Source of the DNA: Acidobacteriota bacterium
GTDB lineage: Bacteria > Acidobacteriota > Terriglobia > Bryobacterales > Bryobacteraceae
Length of the DNA stretch: 64,000 nt
Direction: 5' to 3'
Assembly (NCBI GenBank): GCA_947470805.1
Contig: CANIVU010000035.1
Coordinates: 1 to 64,000 of the forward strand
Shown: positions 42,835 to 51,035 of the stretch, in pieces
Layout of the letters: each line of letters begins with the position of its first letter
Numbering within the stretch: position 1 is the stretch's first letter
Position numbers and translations under genes: made by a program
Notes under the pieces: generated by a model
Database searches by the model: none
Told to the model about the DNA's origin: nothing
What the model saw: only the letters and a program-made list of their open reading frames with translations

Positions 42835-44217
42835 ATGACGCGCTGCTCCATCGCCATTCTCACAGCGGCCGGGGTGCTTTTTGCCCAGAGCACCCCCTAT
42901 CCACGAGTCGTCCCTGGGGACCGGAATCCGGCAGGAGGAGTGGCGCAATTCGGCGGGGCTGGACAGAGTTCGTACGCCCGGCCGGACCTCGGTGAGCCGT
43001 TCGAAACGTGGCGGGACCGCATGTCCAAGCAGCGGCCGGCGGTGGACGCGGCGGCGATGAAGATCCTCAATTCCCGGTACGACTTGACCTGCCGTCCGGA
43101 CCCGGCGGCCAAGATGTCGCGGGGAAAGGCGCTGGCCGTGGGGCCGGTGGCGCATTTGCCGCGGGGCGCGGGCAGTTGGGAGGCGTTTGCGCGTCTCGAC
43201 CCGGCCGCGATCCGCCAGGCCGGCACCTTTCCCTACACGCCGCTCGACCACCCGCTGCACTCGACGGCGCATATGCTGTTTCCGCGGTTCTGGACGGCGC
43301 TCCATCCGGAGCACGAGCGGTTTGACGTCGGCTTCGATATTCCCGACTGCTTCCTGCCGGAGAATCCGCCGGCGATGTACCTGACGACACATCCGGAGAT
43401 GGGTGATGTGAGCGGTGGCGTCGAAATCACCTATGACAATTATTTCGACAAGTTCAATGGCATCCTGACACCGGAGCAGATGGAGGGGCTGCGGCTGATG
43501 GTGACGCCATTTCCGACCACGTGGTTCAACACGACCCATCACCGGGTGACGGCGGCGCCATCGAACGGGGTCACCTGCTTCAGTTGCCACGTGAATGGCC
43601 ATACGAACGGGGCGATCGAGTTGGCGCCGGACAGCCGGCCCAATTATGGCCGGTTGCGCATGGATACGCCGACGCTGCGCGGCAATTATTCGTTCCTGCT
43701 GTTCTCTTCGAAGCGGGCGATCCGGACGCTCGAGCACTTCGCCGAAGTGGAGGAATATTTCGACGGCGACACGACGTTGCTGGCGGCCATTGGCGGGCGC
43801 AATCTACAGAAGGCACAGACGAACCGGATGGGGGATATCAACAGCATTCTCGACTTTCCGCCGGCGCCGAAGCTGGACGTAATGAACCGCCTGATTCCAG
43901 CGAAGGCGACGGCGGCAGAGTTGCGCGGGGAGAAGATATTCCTGGGCAAGGGCCAGTGCGGCGCTTGTCATCCGCCCGTGCAGCATTTCACCGACAACAC
44001 CATGCACGATCTTCGCGTCGAGCGTTTTTACGCCGGGCGTCCGGAGGGACCGGTGAAGACATTCTCGCTGCGGGGAATCAAAGACACGCCTCCCTACTAT
44101 CACGATGGGCGACTGCTTACGCTGGAGGATGCCGTGAACTTCTTCGACATCATCTTGGCCACCGGGCTGACGGCGGAGGAGAAAAAAGACCTGGTCGCCT
44201 ATCTGCGGGCCCTTTAG
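42835..44217 (+). CDS. Diheme cytochrome c protein (MauG/cytochrome peroxidase-like)
   Basis: Protein of 460 residues with a signal peptide (MTRCSIAILTAAGVLFAQ). Two heme c sites are visible: CFSCH at 248-252 and CGACH at 375-379. The C-terminal heme domain has the peroxidase/MauG-like motif FSLRGIKDTPPYYHDGRLLTLEDAVNFF. The first half has no clear domain. This suggests a periplasmic electron-transfer or peroxidase-type enzyme. The TonB-dependent receptor begins 56 bp downstream in the same direction. The start at 42835 has no strong ribosome site. Confidence 0.85.
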   Translation: MTRCSIAILTAAGVLFAQSTPYPRVVPGDRNPAGGVAQFGGAGQSSYARPDLGEPFETWRDRMSKQRPAVDAAAMKILNSRYDLTCRPDPAAKMSRGKALAVGPVAHLPRGAGSWEAFARLDPAAIRQAGTFPYTPLDHPLHSTAHMLFPRFWTALHPEHERFDVGFDIPDCFLPENPPAMYLTTHPEMGDVSGGVEITYDNYFDKFNGILTPEQMEGLRLMVTPFPTTWFNTTHHRVTAAPSNGVTCFSCHVNGHTNGAIELAPDSRPNYGRLRMDTPTLRGNYSFLLFSSKRAIRTLEHFAEVEEYFDGDTTLLAAIGGRNLQKAQTNRMGDINSILDFPPAPKLDVMNRLIPAKATAAELRGEKIFLGKGQCGACHPPVQHFTDNTMHDLRVERFYAGRPEGPVKTFSLRGIKDTPPYYHDGRLLTLEDAVNFFDIILATGLTAEEKKDLVAYLRAL

Positions 44218-44273: not shown

Positions 44274-47200
44274 ATGGTCTCGCGAGGTGTCTTCAAAGCC
44301 GGAGCCGCGTTTACGCTCCTTTTTCTCCTCACTCTCTTCGCCCAGACGCAGTCGCGGCTGTCCGGCCTAGTGACGGACGATAGCGGCGCGGTGGTGGTTG
44401 GCGCCAAGGTGACCGTCCGCAATGTGCAGACCGGCGTCACCAATGAAACCAGCACGACGGACGCGGGGAACTACCAGTTTCCGTCCCTGATTCCCGGCTC
44501 CTATGAGGTGACGGTGGAGTTGGCCGGCTTCAAGAAAGTAGTGCAGGGCGGAATTACGCTCGAGACCGGCATTACCCGCACAGCAGACCTGCGGCTGACG
44601 GTGGGCGCGGTGACGGACACGGTGGAAGTGAAGGCGCAGGCGGCGTTGCTGGAATCGGAAACCTCGTCGTTGGGGCAGTTGATTGAACGCAAGTCGGTGT
44701 TGAATATGCCGCTGGAGAGCCGGCGCACGGCGGGGTTGGTTCGGTTGCTGGGCGCGGTGACGTTCACGAGCGAGACCGGCGGTGAACAGGTGCCGATGTT
44801 TTCCATGGCGGGCGGGCGCAGCCAGAACCAGATGTGGCAATTGGACGGCGCGGTGGTGCAGAACATGTCGCTCGGCGTGGCGCAGTTGCAGTTGAATCCG
44901 CCGGCCGAATCGCTGCAGGAGTTCAAGGCCGAGATGAACAACTTTTCGGCGGAGTTCGGACGCGCGGGCGGCGGACTGATCCTGATGACGACGCGGTCCG
45001 GGACCAATGCCTACCACGGGTCGGCCTACGAATTTTTACGCAATCAGGCGCTGGATACGCGCACGTTTTTCGCGCCGCGCAAGGCGCCTCTGCGCTACAA
45101 CATCTTCGGCGGTTCCTTTGGCGGGCCGATTCGGAAGGACAAGACCTTCTTTTTCGCGAACTACGAAGGCGCACGGCGCCGCGATGGCGTGACGGTGTCG
45201 GGCCTGATTGTGCCCCATGCGCCGGAACGCAACGGCGACTTTTCGAACCGCCGGGACGTGGCCGTACTGGATCCGGTGAGCACGCAGCCGTTTCCGGGGA
45301 ACGTGATTCCCGCGAGCAGAATCGATCCGGTGGCGCGTCAGATCGCGGCGCTGTATCCGAACGCCAACATCGCCTCCGACATCACGCGGGCGCCGGGCGC
45401 GAACTATATTGTGAACGTCTCCGACAAGCTGACGCAGGACTCGCTGACGACTCGAGTGGATCATGCGATCAGCAGCAACGACCGCATTTTCGGCCGGTAC
45501 AACGTGATCGGCGCGCCGCAGGAGATCGCGAGCGCGTTTCCGGAGAGCATTGCGGACACGCGTGCCGGGATTCGGGAGAACAAGATCCACGCCGCGCTGG
45601 GCTCGTGGATGCATAACTTCGCGCCCACGGTGATGAACGAGGCGCGCTATGCGTATTCAATCCGCAAGCACATTAATCGTGCCGCGGGCACCGGGTCCGG
45701 GTTCAACGGCAAGATCGGCCTGAAGGGTGTGGATGCCAACGCGTTCCCGGTGATTGCGGTGACCGGGCAATCCGGATTGAGCACGACGCCGAACGAACGG
45801 ATTCAGACGCCGATTCTGACGCACCATCTGGTGGACAATCTGACGATTATCAAAGGCAAACATACGCTGAAGACCGGTTTCGAGATGCGGTACTCGCTGA
45901 ACAAGGACGAACTCTCGCAGACCGGCGGCGGCACCTTTACCTTTAACGACCGGGGCACGCGCAGCGGTATGGCGGCGCTCCTGCTGGGCTGGACGTCGAG
46001 CGCGGGTCAGAACCGGCCGGACTTGCTAGAGGCGCGGACGGATTACTACGGCGCCTACTTGCAGGACGATTGGAAGATCACCTCGACGCTCACGTTCAAT
46101 CTCGGGTTGCGCTGGGAGATCGATACGCCGCGATGGGAGCGGCTGGACAACCGGCAGAGCGGCTTCAATGGAACGGCCATCAATCCCGTGTCGGGGACGC
46201 CAGGCATCGTCACGTTCTCCGGGCGCGACGGTTTGGGCAAGTATGCGCATCCGTTCGACAAGAACAACCTGGCCCCGCGATTTGGGTTCGCCTGGAAGCC
46301 GATGGCACGCACCGTTGTGCGCGGCGGCTACGGCATCAACTATCTGGGCATCTATTTCGGCGCCGTGGTGAACACGTTATCGCAGGGCTTCGGCGCGAAT
46401 TACTCGTTCAGTTCGCCGGACGGCGGACTGACACCGGCATTCTTGTTCCGCGATGGACTGCCGACGGGAACGCGCGAACCGCTGGGCCCGGGCTGGGGCG
46501 CGGTACGGGTAGGACAGGCGCCACGGGCGGCACCGGATTTCATTTCGCGGGACCATGGGAACGGCTATTCGCAGCAGTACAACCTGACGCTGCAACGGGA
46601 TCTGGGCGGCAATCTGCTGTTTGAAGCCGCCTATCTGGGCAACCTGGGACGCAAGATGGGCGGCGCGGCGGTGAACATCAATGTCATTCCGCTGGTGAAC
46701 GGGCGCGGGCCGGCCACGCAGTCGCAGGCGGCACGCCTCTTCCCGCAATACAATAATGTGAACCGGCTGACGCCGAACTGGGGCAGTTCCACCTATCACG
46801 CGATGAACGTCAAACTGGAGCGGCGGTATTCGAACGGCTTCAACTTGCTGGCCAACTATACATGGTCCAAGTTCCTGGACAACGTCGAGGGCGGCACTGA
46901 ATTCGCGGGCGGCGAGGGCAACGGCTACACGCACCCGGAACTGCGCGCTCTGGACCGTTCGTATTCCGGCAACGATATCCGGCACCGGCTGATCGGCAGC
47001 AGCGTGTACGAATTGCCGATCGGGAAGGGCCGGCGTGTGGACATTCCGAATCCGGTGTTGAATGCGGTGGCCGGCGGCTGGTCGCTTGGCACGATCGCGG
47101 AGTTCTTCACGGGTGCGCCCTGGGGCGCGATCGAGCAGACGAACCTTACCAATACCTTCGCCGGGAGTCCGCGGCCGAACCTGAGCTGCAATCCGGAGCT

Positions 47201-47525
47201 CGATAGCAGCCGGTCGAGGAACGACTATTTGAATCAGTGGTTCAACACGTCGTGCTTCTCGGCGCCCCCTGTTGGTGTGTTCGGCAACGCCGCCCGTGCG
47301 GTTGGCTTTGGGCCGGGTCAGATCAACCTGGACGTCTCGGTAAACAAGCGGTGGGACTTTAAGGAAAAGTATGGCCTGACGTTCCGCAGCGACTTCTACA
47401 ACCTGCCGAACAAGGCTAATTTCAACGTCCCCAACGCCGTGCGCGGACGGGGCGATTTCGGACGGATTACCAGCACGCGGGGCACTGGGCGTCAGATCCA
47501 GCTCAGCATGCGGCTCGAATTCTAA
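44274..47525 (+). CDS. TonB-dependent receptor, Oar-like, with carboxypeptidase regulatory-like domain
   Basis: Protein of 1083 residues. A signal peptide (FTLLFLLTLFAQ) is followed by a CarboxypepD_reg-like beta-sandwich (LSGLVTDDSGAVVVGAKVTVRNVQTG to GSYEVTVELAGF, about 26-100). The plug region then has LNPPAESLQEFKAEMNNFSAEFGRAGGGLI, and the long beta-barrel ends LSMRLEF (terminal Phe, the outer-membrane signal). FFFANYEGARRRDGV and DDWKITSTLTFNLGLRWE are hallmarks of the acidobacterial Oar family. Such receptors import large substrates, probably glycans or peptides, with TonB energy. The FG-GAP protein gene starts 3 bp after its stop, so both probably form one surface system, like a SusC/SusD-type pair in function. 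Confidence 0.93.
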   Translation: MVSRGVFKAGAAFTLLFLLTLFAQTQSRLSGLVTDDSGAVVVGAKVTVRNVQTGVTNETSTTDAGNYQFPSLIPGSYEVTVELAGFKKVVQGGITLETGITRTADLRLTVGAVTDTVEVKAQAALLESETSSLGQLIERKSVLNMPLESRRTAGLVRLLGAVTFTSETGGEQVPMFSMAGGRSQNQMWQLDGAVVQNMSLGVAQLQLNPPAESLQEFKAEMNNFSAEFGRAGGGLILMTTRSGTNAYHGSAYEFLRNQALDTRTFFAPRKAPLRYNIFGGSFGGPIRKDKTFFFANYEGARRRDGVTVSGLIVPHAPERNGDFSNRRDVAVLDPVSTQPFPGNVIPASRIDPVARQIAALYPNANIASDITRAPGANYIVNVSDKLTQDSLTTRVDHAISSNDRIFGRYNVIGAPQEIASAFPESIADTRAGIRENKIHAALGSWMHNFAPTVMNEARYAYSIRKHINRAAGTGSGFNGKIGLKGVDANAFPVIAVTGQSGLSTTPNERIQTPILTHHLVDNLTIIKGKHTLKTGFEMRYSLNKDELSQTGGGTFTFNDRGTRSGMAALLLGWTSSAGQNRPDLLEARTDYYGAYLQDDWKITSTLTFNLGLRWEIDTPRWERLDNRQSGFNGTAINPVSGTPGIVTFSGRDGLGKYAHPFDKNNLAPRFGFAWKPMARTVVRGGYGINYLGIYFGAVVNTLSQGFGANYSFSSPDGGLTPAFLFRDGLPTGTREPLGPGWGAVRVGQAPRAAPDFISRDHGNGYSQQYNLTLQRDLGGNLLFEAAYLGNLGRKMGGAAVNINVIPLVNGRGPATQSQAARLFPQYNNVNRLTPNWGSSTYHAMNVKLERRYSNGFNLLANYTWSKFLDNVEGGTEFAGGEGNGYTHPELRALDRSYSGNDIRHRLIGSSVYELPIGKGRRVDIPNPVLNAVAGGWSLGTIAEFFTGAPWGAIEQTNLTNTFAGSPRPNLSCNPELDSSRSRNDYLNQWFNTSCFSAPPVGVFGNAARAVGFGPGQINLDVSVNKRWDFKEKYGLTFRSDFYNLPNKANFNVPNAVRGRGDFGRITSTRGTGRQIQLSMRLEF

Positions 47526-47528
47526 GCG

Positions 47529-50500
47529 GTGCGATCCCGGACCTTCCTTTTCCTCATCCCGGCTTTGGCTTGCGGCACCTTTTGGCTGCAGGCACAACAG
47601 GAGTATCGCGTCCAGACGAAGGCGCCAAGGACCGCCGAGGTGGAGCGGATCCTTGTCCGCACGGACGCGTTTCAGGATCAGTGGCTGGGTGAGCAGGACT
47701 ACGAGGCGATCAATGCAATCGTCCAGAAGGACAAGCGGGGGCTACCGTGGCCAGCGGGGGTGTTGGAACGCTTTCGCAAGCTGGATGTCCTGGAGCTCAA
47801 GATCGTCGCCAGCAACCGGGCGCGGCCGCAGGAGGATTCGACCGTATTGGGATTGCGGGTGGAACTGGGCGGCGAGGCGGCGGACGGGAGCGGACGGCTC
47901 TCGCTGACCGGCACGGCGCAAGCCACCTTCACCCGGCAGGGGGCGGGCGCGGAATGGAAGGTGCGCAAGCTGGATCTGGGCCGGTTGGCTGAGGTGCGGC
48001 AGGCAGGTGCGGCACCGCGTTTTCGCGATGTGACGGAGCGGGCGCTGGGGCACAACACGGCGTACCGGGAGCAGTTATCGAAGGGGTTGGATGAGTGGCG
48101 CACGGTGCTCGATGAGGCTACGGGGATTGATGTGTACGGGCACAACGGGATTGCGGTGGGGGACTACAACGGCGATGGCTGGGAAGACCTGTATGTGAGC
48201 CAGCCCGCGGGGCTGCCGAACCGTTTGCTGCGCAATAACGGCGATGGCACGTTTGACGACGTATCGGCGGCGGCGGGGGTGGACGTGCTGGACGCCACGT
48301 CGATGGCGATCTTCGCCGACTTCGACAACGATGGCGACCAGGACCTGCTGCTGGTGATGGGAACGCAGTTGGCGTTGCTGGTCAACGACGGCACGGGGCG
48401 CTTCGCGCGGAAGCAGGACGCGGGATTCCGGGCGGGGGCGTCGTCGTTCACTTCGGCGGCGGTGGCGGATTTCGACCGCGACGGGTTGTTGGATATCTAT
48501 GTCTGCGCCTACGATTTCTGGACTTCGGGTGCGACGTACGACGCGCCGACACCTTACTACGACGCCACCAACGGGCCGCCGAATTTCCTCTACCGGAATC
48601 GGGGCCGCGGGGTGTTTGAAGACGTTAACGCGAAAAGCGGAATGAACGCGAACAACAACCGCTTCAGCTTTGCGGCGTCGTGGGCCGATTACGATCGCGA
48701 CGGTTGGCCGGACCTGTATGTCGCCAATGACTTCGGACGGAACAACCTGTACCGGAACCGGGGGGACGGGACGTTTGAGGATGTGGCTGCGAAGGCCGGG
48801 GTAGAGGACCTGGGGGCGGGAATGTCGGTATCGTGGGGCGACTACGACGGCGACGGCTGGCTGGACCTGTATGTGAGCAACATGTGGTCGAGCGCAGGGC
48901 AGCGGTTGACGACGAATCCAGGATTTGCCGAGGTCGCCGATGGCGCGGCGCGCGCGGCTTTCCAGCGGCAGGCGAAGGGAAATTCGCTGTTCCGGAACAA
49001 GGGCGACGGCACGTTTGAGGACGTTTCCGCGAAGGCGGGCGTGGAGTTCGGGCGATGGGCGTGGGGCAGCGGGTTTGCCGATTACGATAACGACGGACGG
49101 CTGGACCTGATCGTGAAGAACGGCTACATCACGGGGCCGGATACGCACGATTTGTGAAGCTTCTTCTGGCGGCAGGTCGTGTCGCGAACTCCTCAGAAGC
49201 TGACGGGCTCCCGCGCGTACCGGGAAGCATGGCGGGCGGTGAATCTGCTCATTCGATCGGACGGGTCGTGGAGCGGGCGGGAGCGCGACGTCTGTTATCA
49301 CAACTCGGGCGACGGCACGTTTACGGATACGTCGTATGTGACGGGGCTCGATTCGGCCGGCGATGGGCGGGGCTTTGTGACGCTGGATTTGAATGGGGAT
49401 GGGGCGTTGGACATTGTGGAAGCGTCGCGGACGGCGCCGCGGGTCCGGGTGCTGGAGAACGGGGTTGCGGCCGCGGCGGCGGTGCTGGTGGAGTTGCGCG
49501 GAGCGGGGCGGTCAAATCGGGATGCCATCGGTGCGACGGCGGTGATGGAGACGTCGACGGGGCGGAAGTTGCTGCGGCTGGTGCAGGCGGGATCGGGGTA
49601 TCTGACGGAGAGTTCGCGGCGGCTGCATTTTGCGCTGCTGGCTGGGGAACGGGCGCAACGGCTGACCATCCGCTGGCCTGGGGGCGGGGAGGAGACGCTG
49701 GCCGATGTTCCGGGGACGGGCACGTACCGGGTGGTGGAAGGGGGCGGGCGGTTCGAGCCGCTGGTTGCCGGGGCGGCGTTGCTGCGGACGGCGCAGAAGG
49801 CCGAGCAGACGCCTTCGATTTGGCTGGTGGAACCGGTGCCCGCGCCGGCGATGCGTGGGGTGGCTGGGAGTCCGGGGCGGTTGACGTTGTTGAACTTCTG
49901 GGGATCGTGGTGCCCGCCGTGCCGGGAGGAGTTTAAGGAATGGACGTCGGCGGCGGGGTCGCGGCGGCTGGCGGCGGCGGGGCTGCGGGTGGTGATCGCG
50001 GTGGTGGATGAGGATGCCAACCAACGGCCTCCGGCTTCCGCGTTTGCGGTGGTGCGGCCATCGGCGAATGAGATGACGGCGTGGAACCTGTTTCACCGGC
50101 ACCTGTTTGACCGACGGCGGGATATTGGACTGCCGACGAGTTTTCTGCTGGATGAGAGCGGGCGGGTGCTGAAGGTCTATTCGGGCATGACGGCTACGGA
50201 GCAGTTGGCGGCTGACGCGGCCATCGCTCCGGCGGCTCGCCGCTCGTTTCCTTTCGCGGGGCGGTGGCTGGGAGAGCGGCCGAAGCGCAATCCCGTTGAG
50301 CTGGCGACGGCGCTGGCTGAGAGCGGGTTGCCGGCGGAGAGCGCGCGGTACTTTGAACTGGCCCTGCGGAAGGGGAATGCGTCGCGGGAGGCGATGAACA
50401 ATTACGCGGGTGTTCTGTTGGAGAGTGGGGATCTGGCGCGGGCGGAGAAGTTGCTGGTGGCGGCGCTCGGAAGCGGGGAGCACGAGGACGATGTTCTCGC

Positions 50501-51035
50501 CAATCTGGGGAGCCTCCGGTTGCGGCAGGGGCGGAATGGAGATGCGAAGGCGGCGTTCGAGAAGGTGTTGCTGAAATCGCCCGACGACGCGATGGCACTG
50601 AACGGGTTGGGGTCGGTGCTGTTTGCGGGTCAGGACGTGGCGGGGGCGCGGGACCGGTTCGCGGCGGCTGTGCGGGCGGATTCGGAGAACGCGGGTTACC
50701 GCTACAACTGGGCCTCGGCGTTGGCGGCGGGCGGGGAGTTCGGCCCGGCGTTGCGCGAGTTCGAGGCGGTGCGGGAGCGGCAGGGGGATTCCGCGAAGCT
50801 GGCCAACAATCTGGGGATTTTGTACGTCGAGACCGGGGCGACCGGGAAAGGCGAGGCGGCGTTCCGGAAGGCGATTGAACTGGCCCCCCGGGAGGTGAGC
50901 GGATATATGAATCTGGCCGCGCTCTACGTGAAGGTGAACCGGGCGGGCGAGGCCCGGGAAACGCTGCGCGCCTTGCTGCGGGTGAGTCCGGGTCAAGCGG
51001 ACGCGGTGCGGTTGTTGGGGACCTTAGGGCGCTGA
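47529..51035 (+). CDS. FG-GAP / UnbV-ASPIC / thioredoxin / TPR protein with an in-frame TGA (candidate selenoprotein)
   Basis: From GTG 47529 the frame is open to 51035 except for one TGA at 49155-49157 (codon 543); automatic calls would split it into 47529-49157 and 49179-51035. Domains in order: signal peptide, FG-GAP/VCBS repeats with calcium-type loops (DYNGDGWEDLYV, DFDNDGDQDLLLV, DYDRDGWPDLYV, DYDGDGWLDLYV, DYDNDGRLDLIV), the TGA, the conserved SFFWRQVVSRTP, a further DLNGDGALDIV repeat, the UnbV/ASPIC domain (about 640-735), a TlpA-type thioredoxin with WCPPC (Cys795, Cys798), and TPR units to the end. Domain flow crosses the TGA without loss, and no ribosome site precedes GTG 49179. 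Either the TGA is recoded (selenocysteine) or the gene is broken. It is 3 bp behind the TonB receptor and is probably surface-exposed or periplasmic. Confidence 0.8.
49158..49201 (+). promoter_or_regulatory. SECIS-like stem-loop directly after the in-frame TGA
   Basis: Outer arms AGCTTCT (49158-49164) and AGAAGCT (49195-49201) are exact complements. Inside, GCGGCA (49169-49174) pairs with TGTCGC (49180-49185), with one G-U, under a five-base loop GGTCG (49175-49179). The loop begins 17 nt after the TGA. Bacterial SECIS elements lie just behind the UGA, with a small apical loop starting GG or GGU; the well-known E. coli fdhF element has a GCA-GGUC loop context at nearly the same distance. No bulged U is seen in the upper 5' arm. 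Structure is by eye, without energy calculation. Confidence 0.5.

Follow-up and report, generated by a model that had tools for sequence, protein, structure and literature searches.

In the window analysed here (64,000 nucleotides, positions 1 to 64,000 of contig CANIVU010000035.1, from the 8.7 Mb draft assembly of an Acidobacteriota bacterium of the Bryobacteraceae), a frame of 1168 codons with a GTG start is interrupted by a single TGA, at codon 543. The question raised by this locus is whether that codon ends the protein or is read as an amino acid. The original prediction took it for selenocysteine (Sec) in a candidate new selenoprotein, and this reading is now strongly supported, as the Sec machinery is present in the genome, the UGA is kept in three phyla and it is followed by a covarying hairpin of the selenocysteine insertion sequence (SECIS) type. 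From these comparisons of sequences, the UGA at codon 543 is almost certainly decoded as Sec. The layout of the gene is as follows.

47529-51035, plus strand: predicted selenoprotein gene of 1168 codons (CRTAC1-type FG-GAP propeller, UnbV_ASPIC, thioredoxin-like and tetratricopeptide repeat (TPR) parts), Sec codon 543
48000-49508, plus strand: FG-GAP beta-propeller region, from residue 158 (Pfam and structure model; upper edge approximate)
49155-49157, plus strand: TGA, putative Sec codon, residue 543; helix-initial residue in the AlphaFold2 model (model residue 386, modelled as Cys)
49169-49185, plus strand: bacterial SECIS-type hairpin GCGGCA-GGTCG-TGTCGC; its stem starts 11 nt and its loop (49175-49179) 17 nt past the TGA
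49293-49295, plus strand: Cys589, possible resolving Cys (Cys co-occurrence in segment 576-602)
49524-49718, plus strand: UnbV_ASPIC domain, residues 666-730 (Pfam)
49872-50195, plus strand: TlpA/ResA-like thioredoxin (redoxin) domain, residues 782-889 (NCBIfam, Pfam)
49911-49922, plus strand: CPPC motif, Cys795 and Cys798 (sequence)
50301-51026, plus strand: TPR region, residues about 925-1166 (Pfam)

The splitting of the frame by one TGA was confirmed in the sequence, and Pfam likewise confirmed that the UnbV_ASPIC, redoxin-type thioredoxin and TPR domains continue in the same frame past it; FG-GAP repeats were also found. For the C-terminal domain the Pfam Redoxin match was over the cut-off and the TlpA/ResA/DsbE-type NCBIfam models matched below theirs. 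A search of the whole protein against NCBIfam 20.0 gave 18 families at E up to 0.01, none of which reached its cut-off or carries a selenoprotein name. FG-GAP and UnbV_ASPIC domains were present in all six further Sec proteins scanned with Pfam. The N-terminus of the product, judged by eye, resembles a signal peptide.

First of all, one TGA in one draft assembly could be a nonsense mutation, the mark of a pseudogene or a sequencing error. However, the same codon is found across three phyla, and the rate of nonsynonymous substitution (dN) is below that of synonymous substitution (dS) on both sides of the TGA; downstream of it this holds in the three pairs compared, with dN/dS values of 0.25/1.10 (with L033), 0.62/1.42 (with L035) and 0.55/1.21 (with L037). 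Nonsense mutation and sequencing error were rejected on these grounds, and the chance that any explanation of this kind is right is negligible.

The conservation of the codon was followed in several sets of genomes. Among 151 genomes, the genome under study included, 71 gave a match and 28 matches were marked '1 TGA'; in 27 of these 28 the TGA lies at the residue equivalent to codon 543, the exception (G043/L070) showing no stop inside the BLAST alignment. A DNA pattern composed of TGA and an FFWR-like motif, which by construction requires the TGA and misses divergent members, detected at least 114 stretches in named genomes, holding at least 115 sites. The frames around these sites are open on both sides to the end of the stretch or to a stop, and the shortest closed upstream part is that of L152, where an in-frame stop lies 64 codons ahead of the TGA. 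Since this pattern presupposes the TGA, a protein search was run on 244 Planctomycetota genomes (apparently the first 244 of a set of 391). Matches numbered 72, spread over 41 genomes; 65 of them had one TGA and 7 lacked it. These counts lean to Sec members because the query was itself a Sec member and at most five candidates were scored per genome. In the 43 of those 65 TGA matches that were inspected the TGA occupies the same residue (43/43). In a divergent Planctomycetota subgroup (L289-L302) the Sec is kept although its flanks vary, as in DL-U-PPFWK and DT-U-SHFWR. In 240 Verrucomicrobiota genomes searched at E 1e-80 the sole match was the query's own genome (G165), whose four paralogues (L303-L306) each have one TGA, so at this threshold the family is patchy in that phylum. 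Some genomes hold at least four TGA-bearing copies (G165, G309). A tree of 173 domains from the family contains 117 Sec rows, 90 of them with a phylum label (47 Verrucomicrobiota, 27 Planctomycetota and 16 Acidobacteriota) and 27 unlabelled.

Two observations on single members were made during these searches. The relative in genome G026, found as L047/L075 (C136) and L252 (C48), shows 80% identity in its first piece, lacks the stretch of the Sec site between the two pieces and contains TAG/TAA stops; this copy looks decayed or misassembled. In addition, a contig titled Akkermansia muciniphila (L154) holds a Sec gene, and its label may reflect binning or naming.

The original prediction had proposed a search of the genome for the machinery that Sec requires, and all of it was found. 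The tRNA-Sec scored 72.1 bits against a cut-off of 47 and was also called SeC by ARAGORN, and selB (377 bits), selA (479) and selD (365) were over their cut-offs. The selD locus has an in-frame TGA itself, and it appears to be of the Sec type because its context, AAG-U-ASK, fits the UxxK motif given for selenophosphate synthetase (Table 1, PMC13188914). Within the 151-genome set, selB was over the cut-off in 127 genomes and in 17 of 18 carriers of the gene, which says little given how common selB is there; for this reason the comparison was made in Planctomycetota. In this phylum, selB was detected in 38 of 40 genomes with a TGA-bearing match and in 127 of 204 without one (Fisher p about 9e-6). 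With the DNA pattern alone, 21 of 22 carriers had selB, compared with 212 of 369 other genomes (p 1.3e-4), and the reversed pattern gave no matches in the 391 Planctomycetota genomes. Furthermore, 30 of the pattern-found loci, of which there are at least 114, lie in 28 genomes, and 25 of these have selB over the cut-off.

The region following the UGA was then considered. The bacterial SECIS (bSECIS) model comprises an apical loop of 3-9 nt, with a G in its first two positions, at 16-37 nt from the UGA and with a minimum free energy of -7.5 or lower, the small apical loop carrying a G followed by G/U (PMC13188914, section 5). In the window, the segment folds as GCGGCA-GGUCG-UGUCGC, the loop being GGUCG, and many members read AGY TTY TTY TGG CGR CAG GTC GTG TCG after the UGA. 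When 30 nt were folded and the length of the upper stem was kept out of the scoring, 82 of 88 distinct Sec 33-mers agreed with the model, versus 21 of 58 TGA-less homologues. The codon usage points in the same direction: wherever Ser is encoded at +9, the codon is TCG (56/56), and the combination of CGA with CCG does not occur in any case, while CGG with CCG occurs in 18. An enlarged set of 105 distinct 33-mers, taken from 180 sites, was compared with 2000 shuffles, uncorrected for relatedness. Standard pairs make up 94.6% in this set, versus 17-66% when the pairing is slid. Pair 18-28 forms in 98 of 105 sequences (mean of the shuffles 81.3, maximum 90) and pair 20-26 in all 105, with seven double changes from A-U to G-C (shuffle maximum 102). 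Non-Sec homologues coding for nearly the same peptide use other codons and reach 63% pairing. Several of the exceptions, judged from their sequences, can fold with a shift of one base.

These data bear on a further explanation, a leaky UGA stop, or termination followed by reinitiation giving two polypeptides, in both cases without Sec. UGA serves as an ordinary stop in this genome too, for example at the end of the Sec gene itself (TGA, 51033-51035), as such an explanation would have it. However, neither TAA nor TAG was seen at the Sec site among the homologues examined, a SECIS-type hairpin is found in most members, and the gene is associated with selB. In addition, the conserved (F/Y)W(R/K) segment starts at most three residues from the UGA, and a product restarted downstream would presumably lack the export signal. 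Read-through without Sec was rejected on account of the hairpin, the selB association and the absence of TAA and TAG from the site, and we regard it as very improbable. The use of UGA as a reassigned sense codon was also rejected, as UGA ends 5 of the 18 large plus-strand frames (listed by hand, the Sec gene included).

If the UGA is read as Sec, the residue found in its place in homologues without TGA becomes informative. The original prediction expected Cys or Sec in relatives: the conservation of Sec/UGA was borne out and the expectation of Cys was not. In relatives, 108 loci were scanned, of which 22 without the motif (divergent, truncated or distant homologues) were left out, and the 59 motif-bearing TGA-less sites had Met (21), Glu (10), Asn (7), Cys (7), Ser (5), Ala (3), Gly (3), Thr (1), Arg (1) and Asp (1). 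The seven TGA-less Planctomycetota proteins had Glu (3), Ala (2) and Gln (2). Glu, Asp and Gly, present at the site in some of these homologues, are the residues that the same prediction had set as arguing against Sec. As the UGA is conserved together with a hairpin of its own and with selB, we read the non-Cys residues as a sign that this Sec is not a substitute for Cys, and not as a refutation. GrdA is named as the one known selenoprotein without Cys-containing homologues in the part of PMC12013277 available. In the 173-domain tree a single change of Sec state is seen, and in a second tree, of 146 domains and with the non-Sec proteins of Planctomycetota added, there are two, both trees having midpoint roots, flagged long branches and Sec forms gathered in part by the TGA-requiring pattern. 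Clades without Sec lie between groups that have it, an arrangement suggestive of a non-Sec state that arose by loss of Sec.

A redox link between the extra Sec and the thioredoxin site, which had been only a plausible idea, gained support. The CxxC of the thioredoxin site is present in 110 of 119 Sec proteins and in none of the 38 non-Sec homologues. For these counts near-identical starts were reduced to a single copy, and proteins of 150 aa or more whose 3' end is closed were used, 157 out of 274 raw sites. At the CxxC columns, 26 of the 38 non-Sec proteins had nothing aligned and 12 had a degraded motif, and in both independent changes of Sec state the non-Sec side is without CxxC. Similarly, 81 of 117 Sec proteins have a Cys in the segment 576-602, as do 5 of 56 non-Sec homologues. 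In the AlphaFold2 model, which spans residues 158-745 (mean pLDDT 94.4), the Sec, modelled as Cys, lies at the opening of helix 386-396 (model numbering), and such a helix N-terminal placement would suit a reactive selenolate. On the basis of the co-occurrence with CxxC and with Cys in 576-602, the helix position and the CRTAC1 fold, we infer that the protein is an exported propeller whose Sec serves as a redox centre. That the Sec is recycled through the fused thioredoxin domain is fairly likely.

Several results weigh against this interpretation. Concerning the hairpin, covariation is limited to two of the six pairs: pair 17-29 is invariant, pairs 15-31 and 19-27 equal the shuffles, and pair 16-30 (96/105) is within their range (maximum 97). 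Six of the 88 Sec sequences fail the SECIS criterion and the 21 of 58 non-Sec sequences satisfy it, 8 of the 58 forming all six pairs; the hairpin of the window, taken alone, folds no better than its shuffles (z 0.04), and within the most divergent subgroup, L289-L302, the hairpin region was seen in L293 alone. Concerning the machinery, a selB passing the threshold was missing from G004 (83% complete), from three of the 28 pattern-locus genomes, and from G293 and G391 among the Planctomycetota carriers. At the Sec site itself, Cys is seldom seen in TGA-less homologues, the 7 of 59 belonging all to one clade of nine rows and Planctomycetota contributing 0 of 7. Finally, CxxC is missing from 9 of the 119 Sec proteins and a Cys in 576-602 from 36 of 117, so neither is obligatory, and the changes of Sec state amount to two independent ones (sign test, p 0.5), which leaves a tree-aware test of the link between Sec and CxxC without power.

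Some of these results would also fit a Sec that is mainly regulatory, with a selenium-gated synthesis of the UnbV/thioredoxin/TPR half, or one that binds metal, instead of a redox catalyst that depends on the thioredoxin. Met, Glu, Asn, Gln, Ser and others are tolerated at this position in non-Sec homologues, as at a non-catalytic site, and the Sec proteins without CxxC agree with it. However, none of the non-Sec homologues tested has kept CxxC, the Sec is retained while its neighbouring residues vary, and the start of a helix, according to the model, suits a reactive selenolate. We consider a regulatory or metal-binding Sec unlikely, and a Sec-based redox relay quite probable as the best explanation of the whole.

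In such a relay, SelB and tRNA-Sec would decode UGA 543, directed by the hairpin whose stem lies 11 bases on. The product would be a CRTAC1-type beta-propeller, probably exported to judge from its N-terminus, with the selenol at the N-terminus of the helix as its putative redox centre. The co-occurrence data suggest that the Sec is reduced again by the TlpA/ResA-like thioredoxin domain of the same protein, perhaps via the Cys in 576-602 in many members. The site of action would probably be the periplasm or the outer membrane, next to a TonB-type barrel here and in several related genomes, and a peroxide, a disulfide, a sulfoxide or another oxidised compound are candidate substrates. More generally, it is likely that these proteins form a large, ancient, uncatalogued family of exported propeller selenoenzymes spread over three phyla, in which Sec is ancestral instead of being an upgrade from Cys, the thioredoxin reductant is provided in cis, and Sec and CxxC decay together.

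Two neighbouring genes of the window are relevant to this location.

42835-44217, plus strand: protein with two CxxCH motifs, weakly MauG/MbnH-like, preceding the barrel gene
44274-47525, plus strand: CarboxypepD_reg and OMP_b-brl_4 outer-membrane barrel of the TonB-receptor type (Pfam), 3 bases upstream of the Sec gene

The barrel gene likely shares an operon with the Sec gene. Using tblastn, a relative of the barrel was found in 9 of 10 related stretches (about 19 kb each, from 7 genomes); on the map of open reading frames (ORFs) it is the next large gene to the Sec gene in 7 of the 10 (L307, L308, L310, L311, L312, L314 and L315), and the five such barrel ORFs of L309, L310, L312, L314 and L315 were all OMP_b-brl_4 by Pfam; these neighbour counts are to be read against the many genes of this type that Acidobacteria may carry. 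A homologue of the two-CxxCH protein was present in one of the 10 stretches (L308:12215-13702), 71% identical and directly after the Sec gene; the two-CxxCH protein, the barrel and the Sec gene form one group in the window and, in another order, in L308. In G092, Pfam assigns a peroxidase domain to a gene lying downstream of the Sec gene (L313:11380-14199).

The family is very probably uncatalogued. FG-GAP, UnbV and CRTAC1 have no entry among the 119 families of Table 1 of the 2026 review PMC13188914 and do not occur in its main text, which names neither Acidobacteria, Planctomycetes nor Verrucomicrobiota. A word search of PMC9312934 for the family terms gave nothing, nor did the available parts of the deep-Sep paper (PMC12013277) for the family terms and of PMC1794560 for FG-GAP and UnbV. 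By title and abstract, the literature on selenoproteins and FG-GAP included no work on bacterial selenoproteins, and in the wider literature (subscription journals and preprints lying outside this scope) nothing on a Sec-propeller family was present among the matches listed. Selenoproteins as such are already reported, in the parts seen, for Acidobacteria (PMC1794560) and Planctomycetes (PMC4807772); the latter paper describes them in P1 and P2, and a member of the family might be in its table S9. The rarity of Cys homologues may explain why screens based on Cys missed the family, and the deep-Sep method, according to the accessible text of its paper, may fail to identify selenoproteins without Cys homologues (PMC12013277). 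If this reading is true, a widespread selenoprotein family is added to Acidobacteriota, Planctomycetota and Verrucomicrobiota, one that would depart strongly from the Sec/Cys exchange underlying discovery methods and to which Cys-based screens would be blind. Genes of this kind would presumably be split or truncated by standard annotation. Moreover, the function of FG-GAP/UnbV proteins becomes testable, because a reactive residue and a likely reductant can be named.

Comparison with known systems places the protein between several of them. The closest solved fold to the model is that of murine CRTAC1 (PDB 9etn; TM-score 0.68/0.72), with a profile match of E 9e-37. The protein shares with the CRTAC1 / ASPIC-UnbV family the FG-GAP and UnbV_ASPIC domains and the CRTAC1 fold; unlike CRTAC1, the bacterial proteins also possess a thioredoxin domain, accompanied in many cases by TPRs. 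The profile alignment to 9etn stops short of the Sec segment, and no report of Sec in CRTAC1 was seen. In the CRTAC1 family at large, genes adjoin hydrazine-synthase-like genes in some clades, according to the accessible part of PMC12758564. Among selenoproteins, the FCYXU TonB-dependent receptor and the UGC-containing TlpA selenoproteins (Table 1, PMC13188914) are different proteins that, from their names, also seem to be of the envelope type; the FCYXU model gave 18.2 bits with the neighbouring barrel, far from the 825 bits of its cut-off, and no match with the Sec gene. Like TlpA/ResA/DsbE-type thioredoxins, the protein has a domain with a CPPC site, at its C-terminal end, but here this domain is fused to a Sec-bearing propeller. 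Finally, it resembles the known bSECIS selenoproteins (the 119 families of PMC13188914) in having a UGA with a hairpin, SelA/B/D and tRNA-Sec, and it differs from them in that its homologues mostly lack Cys at the site.

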